From positions 1,861,309 to 1,925,308 of the forward strand of contig CACVBU010000616.1 of the NCBI GenBank assembly GCA_902728285.1: DNA of 64,000 nt, given 5' to 3'. Every line of letters starts with the position of its first letter. Position 1 is the stretch's first letter. The DNA is from Clytia hemisphaerica (taxonomy: Eukaryota > Cnidaria > Hydrozoa > Leptothecata > Clytiidae). Both the position numbers and the translations under genes were made by a program. The notes under the pieces are model-generated. The model saw only the letters and a list, made by a program, of their open reading frames with translations. It made no database searches and was not told where the DNA came from. This document shows, in pieces, positions 3,950-62,978 of this stretch.

Positions 3950-4600
3950 ATGGAAAGCAATACAGAGTTTACAATATCAACGAATAGCTCTTTTATCTTT
4001 GGTACCATATTCACTCTAATGACACCCATTGGATGTTTTGGTAATATTGCATCCATTATTTGTTTGCAAAAGACAACCCGACTTCAGCGAACCAAAATTG
4101 ATAGTTTATTGAAATCACTTCTTGTGTCAGATCTATTGGTCTCTCTCACAGTTTATCCGCTCAGCGCATATCTTCAATTCACCAGATACCGAGACGTCCT
4201 GTCAACTCTGGCGAACGTGGTGTTAACATTGAGTTTGACATCGATCTCGTCTATAACTGTAGTCTTCTTAGCTGTCATCAAATACATCAAGATGTCCAGA
4301 TTCACATCTTTTGATCGGATCGTCACCAAGAGACGATTGAAAATAATGATTGCCACTTCATGGATTGTCCCTATAGGTGTAATTTCACCATATGTAGTCA
4401 GTAGTAACTACAACGCTGGATTCTTCACTATGATCACATGCTTATCAACTTTGATTATTCTCCCTATCTTTTCACCCGTCTATGTGATTAGTATTCAATG
4501 GTTAACGGTTTACGCTTTCGAAAGTAAGCCGATCACGAACGGTCTACTTTCTTTTTCTCTTTCGCTATTTCGCAGCGTAACCGATGCTTATCGGATCTGA
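3950..4600 (+). CDS. Truncated class A (rhodopsin-like) GPCR, intronless
   Basis: A 216-residue ORF starts at ATG 3950. It has a short Asn-rich N-terminus and then helices matching TM1 (with the conserved GN, residues about 29-32), TM2 (LLVSDLLVSL, the conserved Leu-Asp), TM3, TM4 (with the Trp of SWIVP) and TM5. The DRY position after TM3 reads IKYIKM, so the acidic residue is missing and Arg is Lys. The protein stops after TM5: TM6, TM7 and the C-tail are absent. The last part, from about the Phe-Ser-Pro-Val-Tyr of TM5 onward (from base 4467), is encoded by sequence that occurs inverted at 32024-32148, so the gene is probably broken by a repeat. The ligand cannot be inferred. Best read as a GPCR pseudogene or truncated receptor. 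Confidence 0.65.
   Translation: MESNTEFTISTNSSFIFGTIFTLMTPIGCFGNIASIICLQKTTRLQRTKIDSLLKSLLVSDLLVSLTVYPLSAYLQFTRYRDVLSTLANVVLTLSLTSISSITVVFLAVIKYIKMSRFTSFDRIVTKRRLKIMIATSWIVPIGVISPYVVSSNYNAGFFTMITCLSTLIILPIFSPVYVISIQWLTVYAFESKPITNGLLSFSLSLFRSVTDAYRI
4467..4594 (+). repeat. About 125-bp dispersed repeat, copy 1 (inverted partner at 32024-32148)
   Basis: The stretch TTCACCCGTCTATGTGATTA ... CGCAGCGTAACCGATGC is nearly identical to the reverse complement of 32024-32148, with only a few substitutions. Similarity stops at both edges. It forms the 3-prime end of the GPCR-like ORF. Confidence 0.8.
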
Positions 4601-43814: not shown

Positions 43815-44715
43815 TCAGTCCTGTAGGAGTATATTTTGGTACTTTTCTGCCGAACTGAATTCTTTGTTGTAAAATTTTTGCCATACTGATGCATTAGACC
43901 AGTTCCCCATTTTTAAAATGTCTTTAAGATTTGCCCCTTTTTTGTATGCCTTTGAAGAAGAGGCTGACCTCTTGGAGTGAGCCTGAAAAATGTTGATGTC
44001 AATGCCCGCCATTTTTAACATCTCTTTTACCCATCTAGCTGTTGTATCCTTTCCTACGGGCTTGTGTGGTTCGACATAGCTCAAAAATAATTTAGAGGTT
44101 TGCTGTTTTTTCCTAAACACCTTTGTAACTTTGATGTATTCGGTAAGGGCTTGATATGGACAAAGCTTCCTATTTCCGTCAAATTTCCTAAATTCTATTG
44201 GTTCATTTTTATTTCCTTGTTTGAAATGCTTGGGTGGTGTACTTAAATGAAAAATGAAAGTCGTTTCTGATTTCCCCATGAGATCAATATCCAGGTCCGT
44301 AAGTTCCGAGCCTCTATTTGGCGCCAGGATTCCCAAAAGTGTTACAGTTTCAAAAGTAAGTTCCTTCAGTTGTAAATGTTCGTTTTCTGGTAATTCCCTC
44401 ATACAATTCAACACTGTGTCGATGTCCCATATTTCCGTATATTTAGGCATCGGGGGTCTCTGTCTTCAAACTCCTTTTAGTAAGGAAGTGACCAGTGGAT
44501 GTTGCCCCACTGGTAGCCCTTCAACAATTCTATGGTAAAAGGATATGGCTGATCTATGCCCATTTATGGTGTTATATTCTTTACCCTCTTCGAATAAGGT
44601 TGTCAAGTAGTTGACTACGGTCTCTATAGTACTTGAAATGGGATCAATTTCCCTTTTACGACACCAGCTACTGAAGTTTTTCCAGGCTGACATGTAATGT
44701 CTCCTAGTTCCCTTT
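43815..44715 (-). pseudogene. DIRS-like tyrosine recombinase with an in-frame stop
   Basis: The N-terminal part (from about 44711, ATG 44693, SAWKNFSSWCRKREID ...) and the catalytic part (44450-43815) are in the same frame, separated by a single TGA at about 44466-44468. The catalytic part shows the YR landmarks: Arg I in LAPNRGSEL, the His-x-x-Arg box in QAHSKRSASSSKA, the Trp of MGNWSNASVW and a candidate nucleophile Tyr in WQKFYNKEF. The frame is also the same as that of the RNase H ORF, whose TAA lies immediately upstream (44716-44718). It would integrate the circular cDNA intermediate. The premature stop makes this copy inactive unless read through. Confidence 0.8.
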
Positions 44716-45840
44716 GCTTATAAGGGTAGCAGCAGTTTGTGATATGCCCTCTGAAGACTCATGTTCCCTGATATCTCCCACACTGCCAAGTGCAGTGTTT
44801 TGTTTCGAATGAGAGGGTGCGTTTCCTCCAATGGGTGGGTTAGAGTGTCCCTTTCCATTTCTATCTTTCTTGGGTTTGAGATTAACATCCCCAGTAAAAC
44901 TGGATACCAGGGTTGGGTTGTCCAGATTGGGGCTATCAAAATTACTGTAGCTCGAGACCTGTGCGCTTTCTCCAGGCACCTCCCTATCAGATAAAATGGG
45001 GGAAATGCATATGCTAGAGTTTGGTCCCAGGTCTGAGTTAATGCATCTATTGCTTGACAATCCGGGTCTGGTCTCCAACTGAAATAGGTTTCCAGTTGGT
45101 GGGCTGTTCTGGAAGCAAATAGGTCGATTTCTGGAGTTCCCAAAGTTTCCACTATCTGTATGAAAACCCTCCTTTTTAGCTTCCAATCGCTCCAGTCTGT
45201 CGAGTTCCTGGACTCGAAGTCGGCTTCCTTGTTCAAGCTCGATGGGATGTATTCTGCAGTAAGAGTGATCCCTTTCTGGGTCAAGAAAGACCATATTTCC
45301 TTGGCTATGTTTACTAGAGTCAAATTTGTTGGTCGACCCATTTTCACAATGTGAGCTAGAGCTACCTGATTGTCTATCAATAGATGTATTGACTTCAGAT
45401 GATTTCCCTTCACAAAGGTTTTCAGAGCTATGAGAGCTGCTTTCATCTCTAGGACATTTATATGTTCCTCTTTTTCCCAGCTTTGCCATAGTCCTCCTGA
45501 CGAGATCTGACCACAGTGGGCCCCCCATCCTCCTTTTCTTCCCTTTGCCGCATCTGAGCTTATAATTAAATCTGGGGGTAAGATGTTTATGTTTTTCCCA
45601 TTTCCTGTCGAAAGGTTTTCTACCCACCACTTTAGCTCCTCCGTTGCTTTGTTGTCCAAGCTCATTGCAGACTCGTATCTCTGTTCGCATCTCGCTAATT
45701 GCGTGTTCATGCATTTTTGAAGGAATCTTTTTTGGAGTGGTGCTAGGGTGAAGGCTGGGGCGATTGCCATAAGATTCCCTATTAGGCTCGCTAGTTTCCT
45801 TATGGGAAAAGTTTTCAGACTCATAATTTCCTCAGTTTTT
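44716..45840 (-). CDS. DIRS-like RNase H and downstream conserved domain
   Basis: Read in the frame that ends at 44716. It starts near the IRKLASLIGNLMAIAPA connection segment that follows RT thumb sequences in DIRS elements. RNase H motifs follow: IISSDAAKGRKGGWGAH (first Asp), the HINVLEMKA Glu, the LLIDNQVAL Asp and a C-terminal acidic residue in SSLNKEADFESR. The next stretch, PEIDLFASR ... FSWRPDPDCQAIDA ... YAFPPFYLI ... APIWTTQPWYPVL, is the segment conserved after RNase H in DIRS1-like elements. It degrades the RNA strand during cDNA synthesis. It is in a different frame from the RT upstream. Confidence 0.85.
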
Positions 45841-46940
45841 GCACTTTCTCTAGTGGGACTTTGAAGGTCATATCGCAGCTGTTTATTAAGACTCCCAGAT
45901 ACTCCATCTGTTGGTTTGGTACCAGTACAGACTTCTGTAGATTTATTGTAAACCCTAGATTCTCCAGAAGAAAGATTGTTGTGTCCCTTGAGAAGATTGC
46001 TTCTCCTTTCGACCCTGCTACTATCAATAGGTCGTCTATGTATATGAGGACTCTTATTTGTAACCTTCTCAACAGTGAAATGGGTACTTTGAGTAGTTTT
46101 GTGAAGAACCTGGGAGCTGGTCCCAATCCGAACATCAGGCATTGGAATTCGTATAGGCTTCCTTCCCAGCTGAATCTCACATACTTCTTTGATTGGGGAT
46201 GCAACGGTATTGCAAAATAAGCGTCCTTCAGGTCGATTTTGACCATGAAGTCCCCCTTCTGGAGGATGTTTTTCACATCCTTCAAAGTTTCCATTTTGAA
46301 TTTTTGATATGGAATGTATGAGTTCAGTTCCTTTAGATTTATAACTGGCCTGTATTTTCCTGGTTCCTTTTTCTCTCTTAAAAATAGAGTGGACAAAAAT
46401 TGACCTTCTGTGTTTAGAACTCTCTTCACAGCCCCTTTCTCCAGTAAGGTTCTTATCTCTGCTCTTATCAAGGCTTTCATTTTGGAATTGAAATTTATTT
46501 GTTGTGGTCTTGTTTTTTGAATTGGCCTCCCTCTTATTGGGATCACTAAGCCTGAAACTGTTTCCAAGATGAATTTGTCCTGAGTCAGTTTTGACCAATT
46601 GTTTTGAAAAAATCCTGTCCTTCCAGTCTGTGTCAACTGGGGATTTGATAAATCCTCTATGAGGTTTTTTATACTTGGGTGTATTTTCCCAAATTTTTGT
46701 GACTCCCCGTTTGTCAGCAGAGGTTTTGCTTGACTGGAGAGAGGTTCTGTGAAGTTTGACAGAATTTTTCTTACCTTTGCCTCTTCGGTTTTGAATTCTG
46801 TGGTGCAAGCCAGCCTGTTGTTCATCGGTGTATTGTTCGTGCCCCTCTCCGTGGCTTGTTGATCGGGAGGAGCTCCATGAAAAGGGAGTGCGATTAGCTG
46901 TTTGTACTCTTTTTGAAAAGAGGAATTGTTTGAGTGACTG
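45821..46940 (-). CDS. DIRS-like reverse transcriptase (gag C-terminus fused)
   Basis: The open frame ending at 45821 contains fingers and palm motifs of RT: EKGAVKRVL, KYRPVINLKELN, FMVKIDLKDAYFAIPLHP, FQCLMFGLGPAPRFFTK and the catalytic YIDDLLIV, then LGFTINLQKSVLVPNQQMEYLGV. Upstream of ATG 46825 this frame stays open to about 46940 (ALPFHGAPPDQQATERG), preceded by a TGA; the gag-like N-terminus (from 47081) is in another frame, so a frame switch is needed near 46.9 kb and another near 45.83 kb into RNase H. The polymerase would copy element RNA into DNA. Confidence 0.85.
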
Positions 46941-47081
46941 GTTGTTCACTTTTGCCTGTTTTGTGAGGGATTTTATTGTCTCCTCTCCAAAAAGTTTTCC
47001 ATCACTTTCTTGTAACTCCTCTAATAGGGTCTCTCTGAGCCACACACTGATTTGGCTTTCACGAATGCCAAGTCCCATCAA
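46900..47081 (-). CDS. Gag-like N-terminal segment of the DIRS-like element
   Basis: The frame starting at ATG 47081 encodes MGLGIRESQISVWLRETLLE and then a charged, helical stretch (ESDGKLFGEETIKSLTKQAK), with the usual position of the structural protein in DIRS elements. After about 46900 this frame stays open for hundreds of codons but reads low-complexity Ser/Arg/Lys-rich sequence, while the RT frame takes over. The start codon choice is tentative because the frame is open a few codons upstream. Confidence 0.5.
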
Positions 47082-47344
47082 AGCATTTTTCCTTTTTAAC
47101 TTAACCTAATATTTAGCTTTCATGCCTTTATGGGATGGGGAGATCGTATGATCACAAGAACAGTAAGAAATTCCTGATCATAACAGGGGGGGGGCTATAA
47201 CACGTCAAGTAGACATGACATCTATCCATCTATTTATATAAGTATTATTGGCATAAGGCGTCATATAAAATTTAAAATAAATATTATTGCCATTATAAAA
47301 ACTTGAGCCTGATTCTTTAAATTAGACCTGTCAGTTTTTAAGAT

Positions 47345-47450
47345 ACCAACAGCACGATTAGCCCTAGCGGTTAGCGCGTTGGCTTAGTAAACCTATGGTA
47401 AATTAATGGCTTATGGTTCGAATCTTGATCAAATCATTAATTTTTCGAAA
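47345..47450 (+). repeat. tRNA-like sequence (SINE head or tRNA pseudogene)
   Basis: TAGCCCTAGCGGTTAGCGCG resembles a tRNA D-arm with A-box, and GGTTCGAATCTTGATC contains a perfect B-box (GGTTCGAATCT) about 40 bp later. The acceptor and anticodon stems do not pair well by eye, so a functional tRNA is unlikely. Confidence 0.45.
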
Positions 47451-47599
47451 AACAGTCTTTGAAAGTCTTTTTCGAATATCATATCGTATCAGAAAATTTA
47501 ATGAATCTAATGAAGTAATTTTAACTCCCTAAGTACTAGAAGGAAAGTCTCGGAGAGCCTCAAAAAATGATTGACAGGTCCCTCTGGGGATTTGGTTTT

Positions 47600-47750
47600 T
47601 ATTATTATTATTATTATTTACGAATATTTAAACAGGATAATTCTACAGTCGTAACATATATACATATTTACACTGTTATCTCAGAAGTCCTGCATAAAAC
47701 AGAAACTACATAAAAAGTGATTGACAGAAACTACATAAAAAGTGATTGAC
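47600..47750 (+). repeat. ATT microsatellite and a 25-bp tandem duplication
   Basis: (TTA)n lies at about 47600-47619. At 47698-47747 the unit ACAGAAACTACATAAAAAGT plus GATTG occurs twice in tandem. Confidence 0.85.
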
Positions 47751-48475
47751 ATTCTCGAGGAGATCATTTTCATTTAGGGATTAATTAATATCATTAATTT
47801 TTAGATATCTATGTCAAGACGAATGAAAAAATGGCAGAAAATAATTATCACATTAATTACATCCCATTAAGTAAACACAAACAACTCATTTCAAGACATT
47901 TAAGTGGAAAATCACAACGCGCGACGAAAGGTCTACATTTCGGCGTCGTACTACTACTGCCGTTTTAAAGGAACAAAAAGTATTCCTTTTTTTTCTTTTT
48001 CGATACAAAAAAATCGGTCAAAATCGAACAGTATTAAGCCAATGACATCTTTCATCAATAAAAAGGAACTGATTCCCGAACTGATTTTAGATAAAACGTT
48101 CTAATAAAGTTCAATTTTCTACAGGACGGGCACTTCCTAAAATTTCCTAAACGTATGTGTAATTTTAAGAAAAATAGTATCTAATAATTAACGGATTCCG
48201 TTCCAGAGGAAACGACAGATGAAGAGGCAGAAATGAAACTTGCAAGTGAAGAGTATGACTGAGCGCTTAGAACAATAGAACAAAACTTAAACAAAGAAAA
48301 ACAACAAAAAGTTAACACAGGTATGCTTGAACAAAGTCTGGCTTGACGTTATCTTTTCTTTAGTAGCTTTAGTATGTGGATATGTAGTTATAAATATCAT
48401 TACATTTAGCATATTCGAAGAAAACATCAACTTAACCCTGTATAGTTTCATATCGTCGTCTATTATCGATTCTAG

Positions 48476-48823
48476 GACGAAAGAACCAGCACACCGAGTC
48501 GCTTCCACTAGAACCATTTGACAAAAACGATAAATTTACCATTGACATCTCCAACAAAAGTTTGTCTAATGGTCCGTCTGAGTACGAATCTTTCACCTCA
48601 GAATCTGAATTCGAGTACAATACCGAGTCGCTTCCACAAAAACGATAAAATTACAATTGACATCTCCAACGAAAGTTTGTCTAATGATCAGTCCGAGTAC
48701 GAATCTTCCACCTCAGAATCTGAATTCGAGTACAATTTCAAGCATTACAGTGACGGCAGTAATGAGAGTGAAAGCGGTTTTGAAGAGATGGTCATTGAAG
48801 CTGAAAGAATAACAGAAGCGTAA
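48476..48823 (+). CDS. Acidic Ser/Glu-rich module upstream of the MULE-ULP1 gene, duplicated and frameshifted
   Basis: Two near-identical copies of about 110-125 bp (from CCGAGTCGCTTCCAC at 48498 and again at 48623) encode the peptide DISN(K/E)SLSN...SEYES then TSESEFEYN. The first copy is read from a possible acceptor at 48475 and reaches a TAA in copy 2; the second copy is open in another frame (to the stop at 48823), so the duplication shifted the frame. The acidic composition resembles N-terminal tails of transposases such as the KDZ tail in this window. It may be a damaged 5-prime exon of the gene starting at 49226, or separate. Confidence 0.45.
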
Positions 48824-49225
48824 ATTAAAAGTCTTTTGTTTATGTTTTTACAAGGATAACGCTACTGCCCGGGGGTAAGGGTTGCGAGCTGATGGGTGTG
48901 TACCGCCCAACTTTCGACCCTCGGACCCTTAGCGGGACTAAAAGAGAAAAATTACTAAAATTTGGTGAATTTTACGACCCTCATTGGGACTAATTTGGTC
49001 TTTCAAGTAGCAAAAAGTTGAAATTTGATCAAACTTTGATCTTTTTGGGAGCAAAAAGTTGAAATCTCCTTTTTTCCTACCCTTAAGGGCGGGATATTCC
49101 GTAAGTACCCTTCTCTTGCCTAAGTAACCCCTCCAGCGTTGCTGGTTTCAAACGGTAACAAAGCTGAGTCTAATCAAAATTAGTGCATTTTATAAACATT
49201 ATGTATAAAAATCTTTAAAATTTAG
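48824..49225. other. Non-coding stretch before the first sure MULE exon
   Basis: A 48850-49150 segment has CCCGGGGGTAAGG, CCCTCGGACCCTTAGCGGGA and similar GC-richer motifs with weak self-complementarity. It may be a decayed repeat. No exon seen. Confidence 0.35.
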
Positions 49226-52200
49226 ATCACAAGACGAAGGCGTTATTAACGAAAACAAACCTACATCATCAAAGAAAGAACAAGGTATATTCTTTCTGCT
49301 GCATTTGATAGAATTTAGCACATAATACAAATTTAAGTTACAAGGGGGTTACAAGCCATTCACTACATTGATATCTATCTTCTTTCTTAATCAGCGTACA
49401 TCGTGATTGATTCACCGAGTATTGAAGCAGCCTATGGCGAAATAAGAAGACATGAAATTGAAAACGTCGTCGAATACGTGAAGCAAGCCAGTAAAAACTT
49501 TGGTCAAGGTAAAAATTCCAATTATTTTCGTATTATGTATATTATGTACTGTGATTTACTACTCATTGATTCATTTGAGTGCGGGATAGAAACACATTCA
49601 TAAATTCTTTTCTATAGAAGAAGAAGACTTTAAGGAAGACCACAAAGTTTACTGGGAGACTGAACAAATACCATACACTGGAGTTCCTTTTATGATTGTT
49701 GGATCGCAAAGGTTATATTGCGCTCATGGACAGGATTTCAATAAATCTCACAAAGAAAAACGATTAGCAAAACAAGCTGAGGTATTTTATATTTTACTTT
49801 TTATATCAAGCTGCTGCTCTGTGTATTTATATTAGTTTTTGTCTACAATGCACTACTGTAAATATTAATTTTCCTTCAAAAATACACAACAAAATAAAAA
49901 TCTATAATTAATTTTCCCTACCAGGAGGAACAAGGAGAGTCAAAGAAAACACGTAACCTCATCCAAGATACGAAGAAAGTAAACTGTCCAGCGAAAATTC
50001 GAATCCGTGAAATCATCCGTTTACCAGAATATGAGGTAAAAATGTGTTTAAAATTAAAAAAAAAACTTTTCAAGATATCAAAATAGCGGAATCAAAAGCC
50101 ACAGATATCACATGTATCATATTCCTTTTCACACAAGATAGGCTATTTGCTTACAGATTACCCACAAATATTATTCCAGTAAAAAAGCACACTGTCCACC
50201 ATTTGTCTAGACGGAATGTTCGGATCCAGTCAAGTAGTTTAAGATCAGTCCCCAAGCTAATAGCTTCAAACAGTATCTCTTCGTATGGTTTAGATCGAAG
50301 GGCCAACTCATCATCATAAAAGAACGGCATCAAAAACTCTTAAAGAAAATTTGAAAGATGCGAAACAGGAACGCCGATTTATAGTGCAAATATCAAAACC
50401 AGATGAGCATGTTGGGCATTACACTGGATCTGTAAGTGTAAAATGTTGAAAGAAATTGTTTTAGATGATCTTTTTTTAAACATACAAAAAATTGTTTTAC
50501 GTGATTTTCCTTGAAAGTACAAGAAATTGTTTCAAGTAATTTTCCTTGGAAAATACAAGAAAGTGCAAATTTTCTTAAGACAATACAAGTTATTACTTCT
50601 AAATTTTTCTTTTTAAATCAAAATATTGAAAGACAAACTACTTTGAAATACATACACACTTGAAATGAAGCACTGAGAGATATGACTTTTTTTACCTCAG
50701 CGTGCTGGCTTGTCACAAAGAATCGACTCGAAAATAATAAAGAAAATAATGGAACTCGCAGAGAAGGGAGTCGGAAAACCAAGAGAAATGCGAATACACA
50801 TTCATACGTACTTGGAGAATGAACTTTTCAGGGAAGAGGAGCTTCCACCCAAATACAATAGACGTTTCCATCCAACAAACGAGGACTTTCGGGCTCACAT
50901 CAACAGGGTTGTGGTCAAGAACCGTTTCTCAAAAATCGACCAAGCTAACATTCAAGAATTGGTTTCAAAGTGGGAAAGTAAAAACCCACAAGATCAATAC
51001 TTTTTCCGGCCGTTTGACCATGGCAACGAGTACCAAGTTTATGATGAGGAAGGCAACACACTTGATGAATTGGAATTGAGCACCAAGCAAACGTTGCTAT
51101 TCGTACACCAAAGCGAGGAAATGAAGAGGCTAATGAAGCGTTACGGTGACAACGTCTGCTTGTTGGACGCCACATACAAAACTACTCAATACACCATCCC
51201 GTTGTTTTTAGTGGCTACGAAGACAAATGTTGACTACCAGGTCGTTGGGGTGTTCTGCCTCCAGGACGAAAAGACAAGTTCTATCTTAGAGGCGTTGGGA
51301 AAGCTGAAAGAGTGGAACCCAGAGTGGAGCCCAAAGGTCATGCTAGTTGATTATTGTGAAACGGAGATTAATGCCCTCGAGACATTATTCCCAGGTAAAG
51401 TTAAACAAGTTAGAATTAGAATTCATTTTATGTATAATAATATATTTCTATGTTCCCTTGAACTCAACAAGTTAGTGAGGGTCGTAATGAATAATGTATA
51501 TCCACCATCGATAAGTGAGTGGATTAAGAAATTGATTACCTTTTGATTGATGTTGACAAAAACAGCAACACGTTTTTTACTTTAGAAACCATTGTTCTAC
51601 TGTGTGATTTTCACCGCGAACAATCGTGGGATCGTTGGCTGAAAAAGGGAAAGAATGGAATGAACGAAAAGTATGTAGAAGGAACCACCAAACGTGAAGT
51701 TGTCTTAGAGTTGTTAAGACCAATCGCCAAATCCATGACGGAAGAAGAAATGAAAAAACGCATGAACGTATTGAAATGTAGCCAAGTTTGGAATGAATCG
51801 GCGAAATTACAGGCATGGCTCAATGACACTTGGTTCTCTTGCTGCAAGGTAATTTTCTTTGAAAAAATTAAAAGTCTTAGGATAATATGAAAAAGATGAT
51901 TCACAATTCGTTAATTACAATGGATTTTATAAAAATTAAAAGAAAAAAATCTTACTTTTAGAGATGGGTGTATTACTATCGAAAAGACTTGCTTCCTATC
52001 GAAGTTAACACAACCAATGGAGTGGAAAGGAAGAACCGCGATTTGAAGTACGAGTACCTTCGGCGGTATAATGACAAAACTTTGAGTGGTATGCTGAAAG
52101 TTTTGACACAAGAGTTTCTCCCTGAAAAATACAACGAGTAAGATAATTTATAAAAATAACTATGTAACAAATTTGCTAACATTTTTCATAAAATACTGAA

Positions 52201-55200
52201 ATGAAATCATGTACTTAGATTTTAGAAATAAGAATTACACTTCAATATTAAAAACGTATAATTGATCATAAACTTTTATTTTTGGCATTTAGTTACTACA
52301 AGAAGAACCTGAAAAATTCGTCGATGCACAAAAGGTACAACAGAAACGTACCAACGTTTCTGCGCAACAGACCAACAAAAGTAATCGACCACTGTCAAAA
52401 GAAAATAGCACTGTGTAAACAGTTCAACAAGTCAAACATCACACGGACAAGTGGACAAGGCTACACAGTTGTAAGCAAGCGCACATTTGATACCTACCAT
52501 ACAGATTTGGGATCTCCAAAGTGCGAGTGTCACTCTTGGCTCAAGACAAAGCTACCCTGCAAGCATATGTTTGCAATAATCAACCACACAGACGAATCGT
52601 GGACATCATTTCCTGCGAGGTATCGAGACTCCGTCTACATGACTCTTGATGAATATGTTGTTGGAAACATTGATGACGAATCTGGTAACGAAAAAGATGA
52701 GTCCCATTATGATTTTGATGGTATCGATGCTGATGACGAAAGTGAAATTAAGCAACAAATATTTCTGCATATTCCTAAGAAGAGAAAAATCACACTCACA
52801 AAGTTTTCAGAATGCAGAGAATTGATGCACGAAATCATTTCATTGACTTACATTGTTCCCTCTTCAGAGGAAAACGTAAGTCTTTACTTAGTGCCAAGAA
52901 ATACCTTTTCGAGTATTTTCTCAAAAAAGCTACTTTACTAGGTTGAAAGATAATTCATACTTTTGATGCATGATGATGTTTTCTAACAAATTCTTGATCA
53001 ATATTGAATAAAGCTATCATTCTAATAACATCAAAACCAATCTAAATTTTCAGATTGCAGATAGACTTTCAGAGCAACTCGTTTCCATAAGGAATCAACT
53101 ACATGAAGTTGTGCCAAAGGAGAGAGGTTTTGTTAAAGAAGGAGAACAAGTTCCGAAGCAGAAGAAGAAGAAGAAGAAAGTAGAATCCAAAAGAACTAAC
53201 TTTGCTCAATTACCAAAAGCTAAACCACGCAAACAGGTTGCCACAGGACGTGTTGGTATTGGTGCAGAAAGGCAAAGAAAAGCTGCAGCTAGCAAAACCA
53301 TCGAACAAGAAGCACGTAAAGATGTAAGTTGAATCATCTTCAAAGTGATCTGTAAACTTTACATGCACCATATTACCCATAATAGTCCTGACTGTTAAAT
53401 TTACACATTAAAACAATAGAAATTGTTTTGATATATTTAGGTATCAGTGAAAGAAGAAATGGTTGACTGGACGATCCCCTGTATTTACATCACACCTGAT
53501 GAGAAGGAGGATTGTAATGGTGAGAGTTTTTCCATATTAGTTTTGAATAATTTTAAATCTAATTTATCTAGCTCACTGGTTATTCTTTTATCAATAAAAA
53601 TCAAACACGTACTTACTTTGAACTTTTATAGATGCAATTCCGTTAACTAACAAAGAAGAAGATAATGGGGCAATACCTGCTCGTCCAAATGGTGAAACAA
53701 ATATAAAGGTGTGTGACTCTCCTATATATTTATTGATCTCATTATCTTGCAAAAAGTTTGAACTTTTGAATTGGAACTTTTTATGATAATTTATAGGAGG
53801 AGGAATGCAAAAAGGAACAAGTGGACATACACAAAAATAAAATCAATAAAGGTTAGTTACCACGATCATGATGGTACTCTTTGATTCATGTGTCTTTAAT
53901 TATTAAAATTCAATATTTATGCTTCTTTTTTGCTGGTACAAGCAGAATTTCAGTTCTAATTTGTTAATATCGATCATCATGTGAATAAAACTTGAATGTA
54001 AATTTTTCCCATCAAGATTTTGAATACTTACTTTAGATTGTTTCATCAAGTGCAGTGCAAGTGAAGGTGATTTATTATCTTACTTATCTAACATTGCAAA
54101 GAAGATGACTTTTCTCATAGCCTGATTAAAGCATGGAATTGTTTTTATATATATTATTTATCTATTAATATTTACAATTAAATTTACTTTTTAAGCTGTT
54201 GACAAGGTGGCTGGAATGTCTCAAAACCACTTGATGGCTGTGATAAACAAAACATGTTACTTATTTCGAAATGATTTTGTGAACATTTTGCAAGGGAAAG
54301 TAAATGACAATATCATTGAAGCATACTTGAAAGCTATTGCATCTGATGCCAATAAGAGAAAGGTATGTTCCAGTTTAAGAAAATATATGTTTTAATAAAT
54401 AACTTATCAGTGAAAATAACAATAGTTCAAATACTGCTAAATTTTTACCTTTAATTTTATTCTTATTTAAAAAAAGTGATCACTCAGGTTGTACTTCCAT
54501 TTCAGGCTAACCGTGTTTGCATACTGGAATGTCGATTGTCAACAAATCTTATAAAATCTCAAGTTCAAGATAAACTTGTGATTCCAGAAGCACTCAAGGT
54601 AACTTATAATCTATATATTTTTTACACATTTTTTACCATTTTTCTGTTTTTATAAACTTTATCAACTCATTACTATTTTTATTGAATTTTATTAAATCTT
54701 TGTAGAAAAATATTTTGGCAAGTGAGATGACTTTTGGTGTGTACAATACAGGAGCAGATCACTGGTGTTTGTTGGTGAGCAAAAAACTCCAAGGATAGAT
54801 ATCTAACCTTTCACATATCATTATCATTTTTTTATTTGATTTGCAAAATGATTATATATAAAGTTTGGCTGATTTGATTCTACCAGAAGAAACATTAGAC
54901 TTTGACATTTAATAAAAACCTTTTCATTCGATAATTTTCAGGTTATAGTGCCATCCAATAAAACACTGACTTTGTTCAATCCTATGGATGAATCCCGAAG
55001 TGATGTATCAATATTGCAAGTTCGTTGGCGGTGAGTATTTAATAATTGCTTATGTATAACCAAGAGCCAAGAGCATTGTGTCTTGCAATCTTTGAAGGAG
55101 CTTGGGGAGATTGACATTGTCACTGAACAATGCTTCTATCAGAATTTCAATTCTATTTTTGTATTTAACTATCTTTTTTCAAATTATACAAAACTATTGA

Positions 55201-56070
55201 TTGCTCAAATTTTGCAACTTGTTTTTTTTACCTTTTAGAAAAATTGTTGAGATGAATAATCTTGTGAGTGACTGGAGTGTTACAAAAGTAGAGGAACATG
55301 CAACACAAGAAGATGCAGTTTCGTGTGGTGTATTTTGCTTGAAAGTAATTTACATATTTCTATTTAATAAGACATAATATCAAACCTTTTTCAATTCATT
55401 TCCTCTCCCTTTTATCTTTAAACCCCTATACAATAAATATATTTTTTAATTTTTAGTTTGCAGAGGTACTTGTAAAAGGATTGGCAATTCCAAAAACCCT
55501 ATCGAAAATTGATTTGCAAATCTACCGAAAAGAGGTTGCAATGTTGTTGATTACAATTGGAGGTAATTATTTTGCGTAAAAGAGGTTACTTTCTTGTCGC
55601 CTACAGTGGAAGCCCCAATAACTATACATGGGGACATAGTGAGAATCCTTGCTCTTAATATTACTAGCAGATTAGACAGAAATATGTCATCTACCATTTA
55701 AAATATTTTATATTTTAAGAGAAAGGACCGTGGAATACACAACTTTGTAGGATTTGTGGATACGATGATGAACCTGAAGAAATTGCACTCATGCAGCAAA
55801 ACCAAGATCACATTAATTGGGTAATTTTCTATCATCTAGATCTAAAATCATGGATGTCTTCTTGTGTTTATAAGATGCTTTTGCAAGTTAAGTCTGTGTG
55901 TTGCGTTATGACGTTTTACGTATGTTTTAAATTTCTTTCTTTTTTAGGTGAAGTGTAAATTTTGCCATCCAATAAAGTGGTTTCATTTTGGGTGTCTTTT
56001 GAATTCTGTTCAATCATTGAAAAATCAAAAGGAGATGGCTACTACTAATTGTTTTCAATTGAGACATTGA
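49226..56070 (+). CDS. MULE transposase fused to a ULP1-type (C48) protease and PHD-like zinc finger
   Basis: Exons: 49226-49284, 49395-49508, 49618-49781, 49925-50035, 50294-50431, 50701-51394, 51586-51848, 51962-52137, 52293-52875, 53054-53323, 53441-53519, 53632-53708, 53797-53851, 54196-54362, 54506-54598, 54706-54774, 54942-55030, 55239-55344, 55457-55562, 55720-55820, 55948-56070. All 20 joins keep phase: about 1,211 residues plus stop. Order: CaRF/ALS2CR8-like region (TGVPFMIVGSQRLYCAHGQD; KKVNCPAKIRIREI), MULE DDE core (Asp in LLDATYKTT, Asp in LVDYCETE, Glu in TTNGVERKN), SWIM finger (CECHSWLKTKLPCKH), a Lys-rich linker (KQKKKKKKVESKR), C48 protease (His in GADHWCLL, Gln and Cys in TQEDAVSCGVFCLKF), then CRICG ... 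CKFCHPIKWFHFGC. The protease Asp position reads LFNPMDES, so Asn or a shifted Asp. The MULE part would cut and paste DNA; ULP1 would cleave SUMO-like conjugates. The true 5-prime exon is unresolved (49226 needs a preceding phase-2 exon). Confidence 0.9.
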
Positions 56071-56608
56071 GGCAGGGAAGAGAAAACGCTTGGTTGCTGT
56101 CTGTCTGGGCATTTTGCTCTTCTAACTACCTGTTTGGATTTTTCTGGATTTTTCCATGCATAAAAGGTCCTGCATAAAAACTAAAACGTCCACGTTGTAC
56201 AGTTCTGTACAGTTGTAAACTTCAAAACACGAAAACGTTGTATATAAATATCCTTATTTATAAGAGGAAAGTTATCTTTGTACATAGCTACTACGATTTA
56301 TTTTGATGATTAAAGAGACACAAAAAACTAACTTAAAACATGTATAAAATGTTTAAAGGTGTAGACCTTTTCATTTTGGAAAGAAGGAAAGGTATACTCA
56401 CCATATGCATATGGACTCATGATCGTCTTCTATAGAGAATGTCGGAAAGGGAAATTCTAGAGATCTCTCTCCGCTTTGTTTACACTTTCCGGTTTTTGAT
56501 ATCGGGTTCAAATATCGGATTTTTTCTAAGATCGGAACTATCGGATTTCATAAAAAGCCGATCACATCTTGGAGGTTTGTATCTTACGTTTTCCCATTCA
56601 AATGGCGA
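56071..56608. other. 3-prime flank of the MULE gene, no gene seen
   Basis: The stretch contains possible 3-prime UTR (ATTAAAGAG-like and AATAAA-like signals are weak) and an AT-rich tail. I found no inverted partner on the other side of the gene that would mark MULE terminal repeats. TCCTGCATAAAA near 56168 resembles TCCTGCATAAAA near 47691, but in direct orientation. Confidence 0.35.
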
Positions 56609-56609
56609 T

Positions 56610-56755
56610 TAAACACAAAAGGCTATAGGCAAGGATAGGTAGAAAGCACACAGATATGTCTACATGGTATTTTCAGTTCTGGACGGAATAAACACTGTGA
56701 AAACGGCACAGACAAAATATGTACAGGAATATAAACTAGGAAAATAAAACAAATG
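56610..56755 (-). repeat. Split direct repeat B2 of the Ngaro-type element
   Basis: Matches 57144-57289 almost perfectly over 146 bp (one visible difference, TTCTGGACGG against TTCTTGACGG). It forms the 3-prime terminus of the element. Confidence 0.9.
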
Positions 56756-56972
56756 ATTACAGGAGAACAGTACAGTAAATAATGACACAATACAAACATA
56801 TAGGTATATAAAATCAATGAGCCAGCAAATGGCAAATACATAGTATAGACTGTAAAAGAAACGGTTCACATAAAGAAAATCTAAGAAAAATATCAATATA
56901 GTCGGTGTCCTAAGCATTAAATGAGATTGGACCTAGGAAAGCTTCCACCAAGATGCAGGGGAGGGAGGCGGA

Positions 56973-57289
56973 GCAAAAAACAGCAGTCTGCACTGAAGAA
57001 CTGAAGAACTGAAAAAGGCCCATGTGGAAAATCTGAGGCCTTATAAGGGGCATGAAAGTGAGGCTAATTCAAGAGTCCGGATTAGGACCAAAACAAACCA
57101 ATTGCATCTAAACCCTGATATACAAAAACATATATCAGACACTTAAACACAAAAGGCTATAGGCAAGGATAGGTAGAAAGCACACAGATATGTCTACATG
57201 GTATTTTCAGTTCTTGACGGAATAAACACTGTGAAAACGGCACAGACAAAATATGTACAGGAATATAAACTAGGAAAATAAAACAAATG
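56973..57289 (-). repeat. Abutting repeats A2 and B1 of the Ngaro-type element
   Basis: A2 (56973-57143) matches A1 at 61388-61558, a constant offset of 4,415 bp. B1 (57144-57289) matches B2. The junction between them on the minus strand reads GTGTTTAAGTGTCTGATA, the internal point where recombination through a circular intermediate would rejoin the termini. Confidence 0.9.
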
Positions 57290-57308
57290 TCCAAATCCAA
57301 TGTGTGTA

Positions 57309-58320
57309 TTAGTTGTTAGATAGAGAAGAAATATATGAAGAAATAGAATGCTGGGCATGCAAACGCTGCGACAAGGGCATATGTAGGTAAAGATACATTG
57401 CATCAGACTTCCAGTCACCCATAACTGCAATGGAGTCAAGAGGCACACCAGCCTCCAAAGCAAAGGTAGCCCCACCACGTCGGAATGAGTGTGACCCATA
57501 TTGACGGTGTGAGAGCCCAGAACGTGAGAGGTGTGCTTGAAGAATGTACATGAAATCCCGGTAAACAAAAACTCGGTTAGCCCCCAGGTAGGAATCCCTC
57601 CAACAAAAAGCTTGATCACATGGGAGGGCCCCTGGGGTAAGGGAGAAGGCATGTGAAACTGCTGAAACAGGACAGAGGTGAGACGAAGGCATCGCCACCA
57701 GTGGTATAGTAACAGTGCGTTGACCAAACTGGATAGTCTTGCTCCATCTCACCCTGATGTGGATCTCAGAATCCAAAAAGGTAAAATCATCCCTGGTGAG
57801 AAAAGTGTCTGGGGAAAAATCCTTCTGGGAAACGGGTAAAAGGTGACTCTTCCGAAAAAGCCCAAAAAAGGAGACCAGACATAGAGCCCAAAAGGAAGCT
57901 TGTTTACTATCCCGCAGGTTGAGCTGGGAGTGAATGAAAGAAAGAATCTCAACCGTGATGGGAAGCTTGGGGACTGGAGGGACACCCTTGGAGCGCTTGA
58001 TACCCTTCAACACAGAGGACAGGAAAAAATTATCAAGAAGAGGGTTGGGGAATCCCATCTCACGATGCAGGAGGCCAACAATGTTCAAATATATACAAAC
58101 AGACTGAGGTAACAGGAAACGGGCTAGATACGCAGCATACATGCAGAGGTGCACACATTTAGCAGGAGCTGGCGATAGATCAAGCATATTGCAAAACTGA
58201 AGATAGACCTTGCGGTGAGTACGGTAGGCCTTGCGGGTATTGATAGCATAGGTGGCTTCACGATAGAACTGCACATCTGCCAGCAGCGAAGACGCAAACT
58301 CTAAAAAGCAGAGTGAAGAC
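57309..58320 (-). CDS. Ngaro-type tyrosine recombinase
   Basis: A 321-codon frame ends at 57309; it is open some 12 codons further upstream (FASSLLADVQFYREATYAIN), so the true N-terminus lies near 58310. The N-terminal SAM-like domain (YAINTRKAYRTHRKVYLQFC) is followed by the catalytic domain: Arg in GLFRKSHLLPVS, a Lys strand near RVRWSKTIQFGQR, the His-x-x-Arg box in GSHSFRRGGATFA, then VMGDWKSDAMYLYL with the conserved Trp and the nucleophile Tyr. All catalytic residues are present and the frame is intact, so this is the best preserved gene of the element. It would integrate the circular cDNA. Confidence 0.9.
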
Positions 58321-58415
58321 GTGAGCCGGAGCCATGCAAGCCAAGAAGAAAACAGAAACAGTTCACAGACATGTGCCAGACAACATTATCAGTGGAAGCA
58401 GATTGACCAAAATAG

Positions 58416-58964
58416 TCACAAAGATACTGGAGAAAGGCTGCAAGATGTGCATAGTCGAGATACATGATCAGCAACAACATTTTGGACTCCCGGCACATGA
58501 AAAACTTTAAGGCGAAAGTTATAGCTGGCAGAACACCAGAACAGACGTCTGATGTAAGTCATCATGAGCGGGTTGCGAGATGATCCCTTATTCAACATCC
58601 CAACTGCAGCCGTGTTGTCACAGTAAATATGGACAACCTTATTACACAGGTAAGGTGCCCAGCGTTCCAAGGCAAAAACAATGCAAAGCGCTTCCTTGTA
58701 GTTGATGTGCAAGCCTGCCAGGGCAGGAGCATCAACCAACAAGTTAGAATAGAACCAGTCATTTTCAAAAACTGCTCCGATGCCAGTTGTACAGGCATCC
58801 GTGTGGATGTTGGTAACAGGTCTAGTGTCATGAAAGGAACACTGACCATTAAAAATCTCAAGAAAATCTAACCACCAAGAAATGTCCTTAAAAAACTCCT
58901 CACTCAACAAACACTTGGATGACTGTTTCTGTAAGGAGCCCATAAGGTCAAGAATACGACGCAA
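58416..58964 (-). CDS. Ngaro-type RNase H domain
   Basis: Reads in a different frame from the RT upstream and overlaps its end; the two are connected at a run of five T on the minus strand (near 58958-58962), where a one-base change shifts frame. The start is therefore not a real initiation site. RNase H motifs are seen: TNIHTDACTTGIGAV (first Asp), the YKEALCIVFALERW Glu, the HIYCDNTAAVGML Asp and the GVQNVVADHVSRL C-terminal Asp. It stops about 140 bp before the recombinase, with further stops between. Confidence 0.85.
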   Translation of the reverse strand: MRRILDLMGSLQKQSSKCLLSEEFFKDISWWLDFLEIFNGQCSFHDTRPVTNIHTDACTTGIGAVFENDWFYSNLLVDAPALAGLHINYKEALCIVFALERWAPYLCNKVVHIYCDNTAAVGMLNKGSSRNPLMMTYIRRLFWCSASYNFRLKVFHVPGVQNVVADHVSRLCTSCSLSPVSL

Positions 58965-59938
58965 AAAGTTCTTCCCCCATAAATAACTTTACAAGCCCAG
59001 TTAAGACGGCCAGCAAGCTGTTGTAGCTGCCTCTTTGATGCACGAGCTCGGGACTGAAAAGACAGAAGTGCATCTTTCAGATCACCTAGCTTTTTGACTG
59101 GGAGCGAGAGAGTCAAAGAGGTGGTGTCAATCTCAACTCCAAGAAATACCAGTCTTGTGCATGGTGGGACAAGCTTAGAGGGGCTGATGGTAAAACCTAG
59201 GGAAACCAGAAGGGAGGAAAGAGTATCAAAGGCAGCTTGACATTCATGCTGAGTTCTACCAATGACCAAGAAATCATCAAGATACACTATGATCAAAGGG
59301 TAGCCTCTTCTCTGCATCATACGTCTTACACTCTGAGTTAAACGATGAAAAATACCAGGGGCACTGCGTGCGCCAAAAGGGAGACGTGTGTCTTTTAGAT
59401 ACGTGTAATGGCTATCCCCACTAAATTTCCACTTCAACCCGAGAGCATCTCGGTTAGAAGGATGGACTGGGACAGATCTATACGCATGTCTCAAATCTAT
59501 CTTAGCGATGAAGAAATCCTTCCCTATCAACCTGCAGGCGTCATCTAGGGTCTGGAAAGATTGCTTCTCAATATCGATGTAAGAATTAACGCCCATACCG
59601 TGGGGCATTGAACAGTCATGGATCAAACGGAGATCCTCAGAATCAGGCTTTGGAACTGCTCCAAGTGCGCTGACTATCACAGGCTTTTCAGTAGCAATAA
59701 TGTAGTTTCCGGCCGCAAGTTCTTCAAGGATAGTGGCTTCAACTTTCCCTTTAGAACTCTGGCCAATAGCAGAATTGTAGTTATCCATCTCCGCAGGGCT
59801 GATTGAAGCATCTGCTGGGAGCAATTGAAACCCATTGACCACACCATCAAATAAAAATTGACGGTCCGGATCATTTTGGAGTTCTTTGTCCCAAAGTGCA
59901 GAATCAAGCGGAGAAGGACCAGGTTCAGAAGAAAAGAG
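58904..59938 (-). CDS. Ngaro-type reverse transcriptase
   Basis: The frame is open from directly after the gag stop (59939-59941) to 58904. It begins FSSEPGPSPLDSALWDKELQ, then shows RT motifs: EELAAGNYIIATEKP, LRLIHDCSMPHG, FFIAKIDLRHAYRSVPVHP, DTRLPFGARSAPGIFHR and the catalytic IIVYLDDFLVIG, then LGFTISPSKLVPPCTRLVFL. It is in the same frame as the gag-like ORF, separated from it by one TGA, so expression could rest on readthrough or an independent start (ATG 59842 is late). The C-terminus runs out of frame at the T run and the RNase H continues in the other frame. Confidence 0.88.
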   Translation of the reverse strand, partial: LFSSEPGPSPLDSALWDKELQNDPDRQFLFDGVVNGFQLLPADASISPAEMDNYNSAIGQSSKGKVEATILEELAAGNYIIATEKPVIVSALGAVPKPDSEDLRLIHDCSMPHGMGVNSYIDIEKQSFQTLDDACRLIGKDFFIAKIDLRHAYRSVPVHPSNRDALGLKWKFSGDSHYTYLKDTRLPFGARSAPGIFHRLTQSVRRMMQRRGYPLIIVYLDDFLVIGRTQHECQAAFDTLSSLLVSLGFTISPSKLVPPCTRLVFLGVEIDTTSLTLSLPVKKLGDLKDALLSFQSRARASKRQLQQLAGRLNWACKVIYGGRTFCVVFLTLWAPYRNSHPSVC

Positions 59939-60823
59939 TCATTGAGAGCCACCCTCATTCACAGGATGCAGAAAACCTTGATGTGATTTTCCACAAGCCT
60001 GAGAGCCAACCTTGCGGTTACAGGCATGAGTGAACCTGCAGGGTGACTTCTGACAACCTTTTCTTGAATTAAACATCCGACAAATCTCAGAGCCGGACGA
60101 GAGATGTGTCATTGTGGGAGGACCAGAAACCTTACTGTTACCCGCAAGACCAGAGGAGAGAAAATCAATCTTGGGTGAGGAAGTATCAGTGCCATGCCCA
60201 AGCCCACGAGGTAGCTTTGCAGCCCAGCGAGGTATAAGAACAACCTCATGTAGATGGCTATGGTCAGTACTCCACGAGAACCCATAAGTATGTTGCAAAA
60301 TCCGAAATTCATCGTCATATTGCAACACGGATTGCCATGTGTACTTAGTTGCCAGCTCTAAGACCTTAATCGCATAAGAAAGGTACTCCTGTACATGGAA
60401 AAGGGTGGAAAGCTTCCCAGAAAAAAGTAGCTCGTAAAAAATTCTCAAATTAGCAATATTAAATTGTTCAACTGTAACACTAGAAAGCTTAGGTTTAGAG
60501 TCCTGTAAAATCAAGGCAAGTTTACAATTGTTGTCATAAGACAAAACTTTTTCATCCTCAGCAGGTCGAATACGAGAAACAAAGTCCACTATACGTAAAG
60601 CTTTACCTCTGGTAACATCGTTGGTGCGTGTTGGGCGAAGAAAAAGTTCGTTCTGTGTGAACTGACGAGAAGGAGAAGGTTCAGTGTTCGAGCCAGAATT
60701 CAAAAAAGGAAGGACATTACCAAACGAAGAGCCAGGATTCAAAGTTTGTTGTTGTTGTTGAGAAGAAAGGAGCGGGCGGTGAAGCAAAGTAGACATTGAA
60801 TCGGCAGGAAAATTGTTAAACAT
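59939..60823 (-). CDS. Gag-like ORF 2 with C-terminal Cys/His fingers (Ngaro-type element)
   Basis: 294 residues from ATG 60823. The N-terminus is low complexity (SSQQQQQTLNPGSS). The middle is helical (VEQFNIANLRIFYELL; EYLSYAIKVLELATKYTWQS). The C-terminus carries Cys and His pairs in CRMFNSRKGCQKSPCRFTHA followed by CNRKVGSQACGKSH, a CCCH-like nucleic-acid-binding arrangement usual in gag of YR retroelements. It probably coats element RNA. A single TGA separates it from the RT in the same frame. Confidence 0.75.
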   Translation of the reverse strand: MFNNFPADSMSTLLHRPLLSSQQQQQTLNPGSSFGNVLPFLNSGSNTEPSPSRQFTQNELFLRPTRTNDVTRGKALRIVDFVSRIRPAEDEKVLSYDNNCKLALILQDSKPKLSSVTVEQFNIANLRIFYELLFSGKLSTLFHVQEYLSYAIKVLELATKYTWQSVLQYDDEFRILQHTYGFSWSTDHSHLHEVVLIPRWAAKLPRGLGHGTDTSSPKIDFLSSGLAGNSKVSGPPTMTHLSSGSEICRMFNSRKGCQKSPCRFTHACNRKVGSQACGKSHQGFLHPVNEGGSQ

Positions 60824-60918
60824 GGCGGATCGAGCAGTATGGTTTTCCCCTGAGGAACCGTTGCGTGTATCGGGCGGAGGGGCGGAGCGAGACGAATTTT
60901 GTTGACTTCTAGAGTCTT

Positions 60919-61347
60919 TTAACGTTGAAGTTTTTCAGTCTGACGTTTAATTTCCTCAACTAAAACGTTTTCTTCTTCACGGAGTTGGTTTTCCTTATCA
61001 CGTCTGATTGATTCTAGAAGCTCAGTTTCTTGATTTTTGAGGTCTTCAAGGTGTTGGCGGTAATGATTTATCTGCTCTGTTGAGAAGGAACGAGAGTCGG
61101 GGCTTTTCCTTGTCTTTTCAGCAGATGAGCGACGATTTCGTGATGGAGAAGAAGACGGAGACGGTGGTGGAGGTGGACCTTGGCAGTTTTTGCCTGGATG
61201 ACCAAAATCATGTAAGTCGTGACTTCTTTGGCATCCAGGGCATTTCTTCTTTCTGGTACCAGTAGAGTTGTTATCTTCACTGGTGGGAGTAGTAGGTGGA
61301 GAAGTCAGGAACATGAGAATTGTAAAGAATAGTCTTTCAGCAAGCAT
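60919..61347 (-). CDS. Small gag-like/accessory ORF 1 of the Ngaro-type element
   Basis: 142 residues, ATG 61347 to the stop at 60919, directly after the A1 repeat. A possible zinc motif (KKCPGCQRSHDLHDFGH) is followed by a Pro-rich stretch, a Ser/Arg stretch (SPSSSPSRNRRSS) and a C-terminal coiled coil (ETELLESIRRDKENQLREEE). I know no catalytic family for it. Its place before gag suggests an assembly or RNA-binding role. About 95 bp separates it from the next ORF, in another frame. Confidence 0.6.
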   Translation of the reverse strand: MLAERLFFTILMFLTSPPTTPTSEDNNSTGTRKKKCPGCQRSHDLHDFGHPGKNCQGPPPPPSPSSSPSRNRRSSAEKTRKSPDSRSFSTEQINHYRQHLEDLKNQETELLESIRRDKENQLREEENVLVEEIKRQTEKLQR

Positions 61348-61387
61348 TTTGACAGATAAACAGTAACAGGAGATAAATGTAAAAACA

Positions 61388-61558
61388 GCAAAAAACAGCA
61401 GTCTGCACTGAAGAACTGAAGAACTGAAAAAGGCCCATGTGGAAAATCTGAGGCCTTATAAGGGGCATGAAAGTGAGGCTAATTCAAGAGTCCGGATTAG
61501 GACCAAAACAAACCAATTGCATCTAAACCCTGATATACAAAAACATATATCAGACACT
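61388..61558 (-). repeat. Split direct repeat A1 (5-prime terminus) of the Ngaro-type element
   Basis: Matches A2 (56973-57143) along its full length. Transcription would start in or just after this repeat. On the minus strand it begins AGTGTCTGATATATG. Confidence 0.9.
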
Positions 61559-62978
61559 AAAAAGCAAGATAAAAAAATTCCACCTCTTTCTTTATATAAA
61601 AACATTCAAGTGGTGATACGGTTAAAAACTGTATACGTCATTTTACATGTTTAAATTCGAAAAGTTATGACAGGGGGGTTTAAAAAAAGCAATTTAGAAT
61701 TGACTTATTTATCTTTTTATATCCGATAAAAACAAAGTTGCACTATTCTTTGTGGCTTTCCCGCTTTTTCTTGAAGAATTCTCATTTCTACATTTTACTC
61801 CTCTTTACCATAATATTTTCTCAAATTTTCTCAAACTGGACAGCGTATTTAATGAGAGCGAAGCGAGAAAAGGATCTCCGGGGAGGGTTAGAGTCAAACT
61901 TTGAAGATATCTATTTATTCATTTGATCGTTTTTTTAAGCCAGCTTCAACATCCAAAGGACTTTTAGTGCGTTCAGCTACAGCTTAACCGGCGTGCGACG
62001 CCGGGTACCGGCTAGTACTGACTAATTTTCCACCAAATTTGATTTTTCATGTATGAATTCCGAAAAAGGGGAGTTAATTTTTCTTTCTTTTTTACTATTT
62101 ATTGCTTTCCTGATGCACAGAACAAGGCACTTGCAGTCTCTTAGAGGGGAATCACAATACAAAAAAGGAGGCTGTTTTAGGCGCTCTAGAGGGGTCAAAA
62201 ATCGAAAATTTTCTGTATGTTACCTTTAAAATCCTAAATCCGCTCCTGAAAAGGGCATAAAGAACACTGTAACAACAATCCCACATACACTACAGGGGAA
62301 AAAACATTTGAAGCAAACAACATCTCACACAAAAATAGAAAAATACAGAATCAGAAGTTGGACAAGAACCCGGTTCGGCGTGCCGCGACGGGACGACCGC
62401 ACGGGGAAAAGTATAGCCTGGATATCCAAGCTCAAAATTTACCTCGACATAGAAAGTTCTAAGATTATAGAGCTTGGTCTCCCTTGAGAATGAAAGTGCA
62501 AACCCATGTTTCCAAAACTTTTCTAGCCGACCCAGGGCAGCAAAACATAAATTAATAAAAAGCAGCCTTGCAAGATCTTCTTTTTAACGAACAACTGTTT
62601 TTTGACGTCGGAAAGAGAAAATGGATTTTTATAGCGGCGGGTATATAATGCTTAAAACATAATGCATATTGCATAATTTATAATATATTTGAAAAATGTT
62701 AATTTTAGAGGCTGTAATAAGGAGAATTTGAAAGATAATACTTTCAACAAAACAAATATACCATTTTCTACCAGAACATAAAGGGTAGAAAGCTGTAAAT
62801 TTGAACTTTGGATGGTAAAGAAAATCCATGATCCACTGAAAATGCTTGCCACCATTTTGATTTTCATAGTTGTCTTTTACATAACGTAGCATAGTGTAGA
62901 AAAAACACGAAATATCTCCTCCGTATATTACTTTTTAATTCGAAAACGTAAATTTTATAGCAAGATCCGGCCTTCAGT
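61559..62978. other. Non-coding stretch
   Basis: No supported exon. Open minus-strand frames at 62629-62892 encode hydrophobic sequence without splice context or known domain and are not called. Confidence 0.35.

Follow-up and report, generated by a model that had tools for sequence, protein, structure and literature searches.

Does a single gene in the hydrozoan Clytia hemisphaerica encode both a Mutator-type transposase and a Ulp1-type cysteine protease, and is the element that carries it intact? The question is raised by a 64,000-nucleotide stretch of contig CACVBU010000616.1 (C432:1861309-1925308, hereafter the window), in which a first-pass annotation, made from the sequence alone, described a Mutator-like element (MULE) whose transposase continues in frame into a SUMO protease and a PHD-like finger. 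We searched the 417-Mb assembly for relatives of this gene and refer to the loci by contig (C881, C207 and so on). The exon chain, its copies and their ends together make a single fused gene of a genuine Mutator-type transposon the most likely reading of the locus, and show the copy in the window to be 5′-truncated and damaged at its N-terminus.

One reading frame spans transposase, protease and finger

The 21 exons between 49226 and 56070 on the plus strand were located by their splice sites (Table 1). All 20 introns are GT-AG, and the joined exons form a single frame, uninterrupted for 1,211 codons until the stop codon, as the first-pass annotation had claimed, with the exon coordinates unchanged; the two alternative frames contain 94 and 67 stops. 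A control run of our purpose-written spliced aligner on the window returned the identical 21 exons, barring the first base and the stop codon, and the identical protein.

Domains were called with Pfam profiles at their curated cut-offs, with matches listed to an E-value of up to 1. Above the cut-offs we found, from the N-terminus, CaRF/ALS2CR8 (PF15299, residues 61-265, E 2.1e-41), the ZSWIM1-3 RNaseH-like domain (PF21056, residues 322-430, E 1.3e-16), MULE (PF10551, residues 347-436, E 3.6e-11), which identifies the DDE domain as MULE-type, SWIM (PF04434, residues 641-671, E 1.2e-4) and Peptidase_C48 (PF02902, residues 964-1136, E 3.3e-9). The transposase core contains the acidic residues D351, D412 and E536, which we take to be its DDE residues. 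The profile search thereby bore out the CaRF, MULE, SWIM and C48 domains of the annotation but not its PHD finger, which is considered below. With the upstream exons described further on included, the protein of this family in all likelihood reads acidic N-terminus, CaRF-like domain, DDE transposase, SWIM, basic linker, Ulp1-like cysteine protease and PHD-like finger.

Part of the linker (53180-53260, AKPRKQVATGR) resembles the histone H3 tail, a resemblance that fades in the paralogs. We did not pursue this likeness, because it is partial in C207 and because C735 and C899 have lost the H3-like part while retaining GRVG.

A second open copy defines the ends of the element

Few places in the genome match this gene at the DNA level. 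Exon 6 has two, the window and C881 (99%), and the C48-PHD exons have three long ones, namely the window, C881 (where they are split by an insertion) and C875, together with 45-nt matches at C853 and C348. The C881 copy matches the window over 47095-56594 and retains all 21 exons and their splice sites with the frame open throughout. Compared with the 3,637 coding bases of the window, it shows 32 substitutions and, in exon 10, in-frame gaps of 9 and 3 nt; the introns, leaving out intron 15 and the insertion it contains, differ at 39 of 3,056 aligned bases by substitution. A divergence of 0.32 in the 3′ flank of C881 was discarded as an artefact of an insertion, since BLAST gives 91-97% identity there. 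The third locus, C875, holds only 54037-56594 with a broken frame and is a decayed sister copy.

All three copies terminate at one point, window position 56594. C881 and a further locus, C395, extend further 5′ and carry there the inverse of this 3′ end. In C881 the resulting terminal inverted repeats (TIRs) are identical over 43 of 43 bp, and the element is flanked on both sides by ATTTCTCTA, a target site duplication (TSD) of 9 bp with 9/9 bp matching; this is a copy with matching terminal repeats of the kind that the annotation had proposed to look for. Nested insertions bring the length of C881 to 21,277 bp. When the 64-kb window was compared with 40 kb around C881 (E 1e-10), no further match longer than 80 bp appeared beyond the internal repeat.

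The same ends also bound much shorter elements. The first 21 bases of the TIR, allowing up to two mismatches, gave 157 matches in the genome as compared with 0 for a reversed control. Among the first 100 of the 157 matches we hand-picked 26 convergent pairs, a non-exhaustive set, with spans of 323-4,407 bp (22 below 600 bp), and each of the five short elements sampled from these pairs had an exact 9-bp duplication together with the shared repeat. A shared TIR with 9-bp duplications is the signature of Mutator-type transposition, and the duplication falls within the 8-11 bp given for Mutator-like elements in PMC6446971. Taken together, the window very probably contains a copy of an autonomous-type Mutator-like DNA transposon with 43-bp TIRs and a 9-bp duplication, a family represented here by static copies, and we infer that the transposase of this family moved the short elements.

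The copy in the window is damaged

Alignment of the window with C881 and C455 revealed two upstream coding exons that were absent from the earlier 21-exon model. Exon −2, whose acidic DTTDEE stretch has a similar counterpart in C207, carries an in-frame TGA in the window (48260-48262), and exon −1 carries a frame-shifting 14-nt deletion near 48635. The modelled exons have one stop in C455, and no start codon was found with certainty in the alignment of the upstream exons with C881 and C455. From the sequence, an internal Met in exon −1 could still start the 1,211-residue part.

The 5′ end of the window copy lies at 47094, where it meets the repeat of a retroelement. No 5′ inverted repeat was found in the window, which has only the 3′ repeat; a search for a TIR pair within it returned none because the 5′ end is missing, and the ends were therefore defined through C881 and C395. 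The description of this copy as apparently intact is refuted by the TGA, the 14-nt deletion and the absent 5′ repeat, and that of a self-contained element is unsupported here, with the 5′ end lost and the upstream exons broken. A diverged 5′ part of the element was also seen at C455:1847501-1857500, where window 47084-49643 is matched in pieces at 77-87% identity; these 10 kb contain no transposase core.

The order of MULE and Ulp1 recurs in diverged families

We set 91 MULE matches (150 of 157 candidates scored) against 41 C48 matches (E up to 10) and 64 matches to the Ulp1 part of C207. Eight MULE matches have a Ulp1 partner within 10 kb (C207, C340, C735, C417, C899, C118, C455 and C17), and all eight partners lie downstream on the same strand, 1,968-4,091 bp from the MULE match. 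By the C48 search, seven of the 41 matches are within 10 kb of a MULE match, seven of seven downstream on the same strand, where about 0.04 same-strand pairs would be expected by chance. The eighth pair, C17, was detected only by its match to the C207 Ulp1, and the weakest is C455, with E 0.48 in the C48 search and 3.7e-7 in the C207-Ulp1 search. The Ulp1 of C340 is 99% identical to that of C207, and C735, C417 and C118 have equal MULE scores; some of the eight loci may be duplicates or alleles.

Two of these paralogs, C207 and C735, could be modelled from CaRF to finger by spliced alignment, giving 1,193 residues each with no stops. Pfam finds CaRF, MULE, SWIM and C48 in identical order in both, the finger of C735 being seen in alignment only. 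C899 was modelled in part with one stop, which is possibly a fault of the model, and in C455 remnants of SWIM and Ulp1 lie within one uninterrupted 342-codon frame. Among the 25 longest inverted pairs of each of C207 and C735 no convincing TIR pair was present. The search for paralogs with the same domain order was thus successful, and the proposal of a fusion is supported, as far as genomic sequence can speak to it, by two open full-chain copies, the recurring order in diverged families and the C455 frame. Transposase-protease fusion is therefore encountered repeatedly in this genome and is no chance event at a single position.

Weighing the alternatives

Several of the observations set out in this section, together with the upstream breaks and the lost 5′ end of the window copy, weigh against a fused, working transposon gene. 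The exon chain, and with it a putative fused transcript, is predicted from the genome, and a chain of this kind would also be obtained if two neighboring genes, one for a CaRF-MULE-SWIM transposase and the other for Ulp1-PHD, had been joined only by the annotation's choice of exons. Exons 10-13, between the two halves, have no Pfam match. Window-type Ulp1-PHD exons are also present in 10-kb stretches at C853 and at C348 and in a 40-kb stretch at C875, none of which contains a MULE match; for C853 a MULE match lies 39.8 kb off, and the exons at C853 and C348 are candidates for a remnant or for another carrier of the cassette. Moreover, for 83 of the 91 MULE matches the surrounding 10 kb show no match to Ulp1, although a miss in this search is not an absence. 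These 83 include the window and C881 themselves, whose C48 exons are too short for the search to detect, which leaves 81 others with no visible partner at the sensitivity used. Against two genes stand the compatible phases across exons 9-14, the preservation of the frame in C881, a linker that is 44% identical to that of C207, the seven of 41 C48 matches that follow a MULE on the same strand, and the single frame that holds both SWIM and Ulp1 remnants at C455. We regard two genes as very unlikely.

A fused gene could instead be a domesticated one, a MULE-derived host gene family with a role in chromatin that is no longer a transposon. The gene is rich in introns, has few coding copies by DNA match and conserves its domain order across families. 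However, C881 has a 43-bp TIR and a 9-bp TSD, short elements share these ends and a TSD of the same length, the copies sit in unmatched flanks and one sister copy has decayed. The codon changes between the window and C881 (22 nonsynonymous and 10 synonymous, n=32; dN 0.0077, dS 0.0139) do not differ significantly from neutral (p 0.12). This near-neutral change speaks against a host gene, and it also gives no sign of present selection on the protein. For the window family domestication is largely refuted, and we consider it the least probable of the alternatives.

A third alternative accepts the fused transposon gene and concerns only its C-terminal half, which might no longer be a protease but a SUMO-binding or structural module. 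The active-site His (54760-54762), Gln (55306-55308) and Cys (55324-55326) are present, as the annotation had stated, but the C48 triad is incomplete, with Asn (54978-54980) in the column of the SENP1 triad Asp. C881 likewise has Asn in this column, and around the nucleophile the D-C-G of SENP1 is replaced by S-C-G. On the other side, the window and C881 both retain His, Gln and Cys, and C735, C899 and C207 keep the Asp. Papain-type enzymes work with Cys-His-Asn triads, and activity of the window domain is therefore possible; the Asn nonetheless makes SUMO editing less certain. In a search of solved structures, the C48 part matched the Ulp1-like SUMO protease 6dg4 (E 0.004, improving to 0.00031 when the finger was added) and, with a best E of 0.0089, SENP1. 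The finger is also incomplete, as it lacks the final CxxC of the C4HC3 ligands and scores below the cut-off (PF00628, E 0.012), whereas the finger of C207 is a complete PHD (E 4.9e-8, in the reading frame covering its finger exon). We think loss of protease activity unlikely, although it has a far better claim than either of the other two alternatives, and we continue with the reading of a transposase fused to a Ulp1-type protease.

The protease cassette may have been exchanged between families

The two halves of the protein compare very differently with C207. Identity between the window and C207 is 50% in CaRF, 69% in MULE, 46% in SWIM and 44% in the linker, and falls to 25% in Ulp1 and 27% in the finger; the Ulp1 domain is laid out in six exons in the window and in one exon in C207. 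In a MULE tree of six rows, the window groups with C207 and C17 (support 100/99). All five Ulp1 trees separate C207 and C17, along with C455 if it was included, from the other rows with support between 100/96 and 100/99; in them the window joins C899, along with C735 and C853 if these were included, at bootstrap values of 81-94, never starred.

With eight rows, the approximately unbiased (AU) test rejected the no-exchange grouping (p 0.0018 with the finger, 0.0030 without it), and in three six-row runs it did not (p 0.23, 0.071 and 0.073). A grouping of the window with C207 alone, which omits C17 and C853, gave p 2.9e-7. The Ulp1 trees have very long branches and some of their rows are partial, and we therefore treat exchange as suggestive. 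On this evidence, and on the differing exon layout, the protease half in the window may belong to a different Ulp1 lineage than that of C207. We tentatively suggest, at somewhat less than even odds, that MULE families within one genome keep their CaRF-MULE-SWIM engine and swap the Ulp1-PHD cassette that follows it, with the introns of the linker as a possible place for exon shuffling and with a Cys-His-Asn form of the protease in the window family. Alternatively, faster evolution may have affected the Ulp1 half alone.

Neighboring elements in the window

The window copy is bordered on both sides by retroelements, presumably DIRS-like (Table 1). The segment 46600-47094 recurs at 99-100% identity in seven other places and ends there, and parts of both retroelements recur elsewhere at high identity. 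Elsewhere in the window, open stretches at 8849-9907, 3914-4600 and 14534-15187 match a protein kinase, a rhodopsin-type seven-transmembrane (7TM) receptor and a chromodomain, respectively.

Table 1. Features of the element and its borders in the window.
Feature	Position	Strand	Basis or remark
Upstream coding exon −2, 5′ limit uncertain	about 48205..48320	+	Open in C881, in phase with the exon that follows
Upstream coding exon −1, acidic, internally repeated	48476..48819	+	Open in C881, its donor in phase with exon 1 (49226)
Exons 1-5, N-terminal part and most of CaRF/ALS2CR8	49226..50431	+	GT-AG, one frame; PF15299
Exon 6, end of CaRF and MULE/ZSWIM RNaseH-like core (D351 at 51166-51168, D412 at 51349-51351)	50701..51394	+	PF10551, PF21056
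Exons 7-8, remainder of the DDE domain (E536 at 52025-52027)	51586..52137	+	Aligned in C207, C735, C899
Exon 9, SWIM zinc finger and acidic tail	52293..52875	+	PF04434
Exons 10-13, basic linker, GRVGxxAE-like motif common to C207, C735, C899	53054..53851	+	Alignment
Exons 14-19, Ulp1/C48 protease domain	54196..55562	+	PF02902, SENP1 alignment
Exons 20-21, PHD-like finger C..C / C..C / H..C, stop codon at 56068-56070	55720..56070	+	PF00628 (below cut-off), frame
3′ terminal inverted repeat, 43 bp	56552..56594	+	97.7% identical to the C395 5′ end
Retroelement, tyrosine recombinase and reverse transcriptase	43815..47105	−	Repeat ends at 47094, where the MULE copy loses its 5′ end
Second element, adjoining the MULE 3′ end	56609..61567	−	Reverse transcriptase E 3.5e-15; tyrosine recombinase E 6e-4, below cut-off

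A possible mechanism and its relation to known systems

From the domain order we can outline how such a protein might act. The CaRF and SWIM parts would bind the 43-bp ends, and the DDE core would excise the element and insert it with the 9-bp stagger seen in the observed duplications. The Ulp1-PHD cassette might remove a SUMO-type modifier, either from the transposase or from local chromatin or repair factors, and the finger would bring the protease to chromatin. The step of SUMO removal is a tentative part of this scheme, and we would put it at rather below an even chance. The nearest precedent that we met is in plants, where PMC13317346 links Vandals carrying KIU to the loss of DNA methylation from related elements, an anti-silencing effect. 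The defined ends and the short relatives make the activity of the family testable, and if cassette swapping is true, these elements offer a natural experiment on the benefit that DNA transposons draw from SUMO or ubiquitin proteases, a point that the passages on Ginger and on KAONASHI leave open.

The first-pass annotation had called such a fusion not well described in animals, which the literature does not support. In its passages on Ulp1, PMC2836005 states that hydra, lancelet and several plants have Mutator transposons encoding the protease, citing Repbase Reports of 2008 and 2009 for the MuDR-type elements of Hydra magnipapillata and Branchiostoma floridae, and proposes a role for Ulp1 in transposition or repair. 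The novelty of our finding is therefore modest. The window holds a new family of a kind already known, and the hydra and lancelet elements are likewise animal Mutators with Ulp1. Among the texts and portions of text available to us, only PMC2836005 spoke of Ulp1 in animal Mutators, from which its absence elsewhere does not follow. PMC6446971 lists a MuDR of hydra with OTU and does not contain 'ulp1' in its text, and the main text of PMC13359780, on arthropod MULEs, has no match to ulp, protease, PHD or SWIM. Scanning viral contigs for the MULE exons aligned between the window and C207 gave 220 pattern stretches and 0 confirmed relatives.

The C-terminal architecture has a parallel outside the Mutators. 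Ginger1 transposases (e.g. Ginger1-9_HM) likewise end in Ulp1 and PHD, and the legend of Figure 1e in PMC2836005 describes an alignment of these domains from Ginger1 and Mutator transposases. Unlike the window family, with its MULE-type DDE domain, 9-bp duplication and at least 20 introns, Ginger1 elements have 0-4 introns (Table 1 of PMC2836005) and a DDE domain that is Gypsy-integrase-like, and no integrase domain was found in the window protein by Pfam to E 1. KAONASHI (KI) is, like the window family, a Mutator with Ulp1. In the passages concerned, however, KI is described as non-TIR, its Ulp1 being reversed (PMC2528002) or forming a separate gene (PMC13317346), whereas the window family has TIRs and carries Ulp1 in the same frame and on the same strand after SWIM, which sets it outside KI as so defined. 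Some grapevine MULE families are marked in PMC2528002 as carrying Ulp1 in the frame orientation of their transposase. The engine of the protein resembles ZSWIM1/3 and CaRF (ALS2CR8), whose RNaseH-like and CaRF domains are alike by Pfam models only; unlike them, the window family joins both domains and a protease in one protein of a TIR element.

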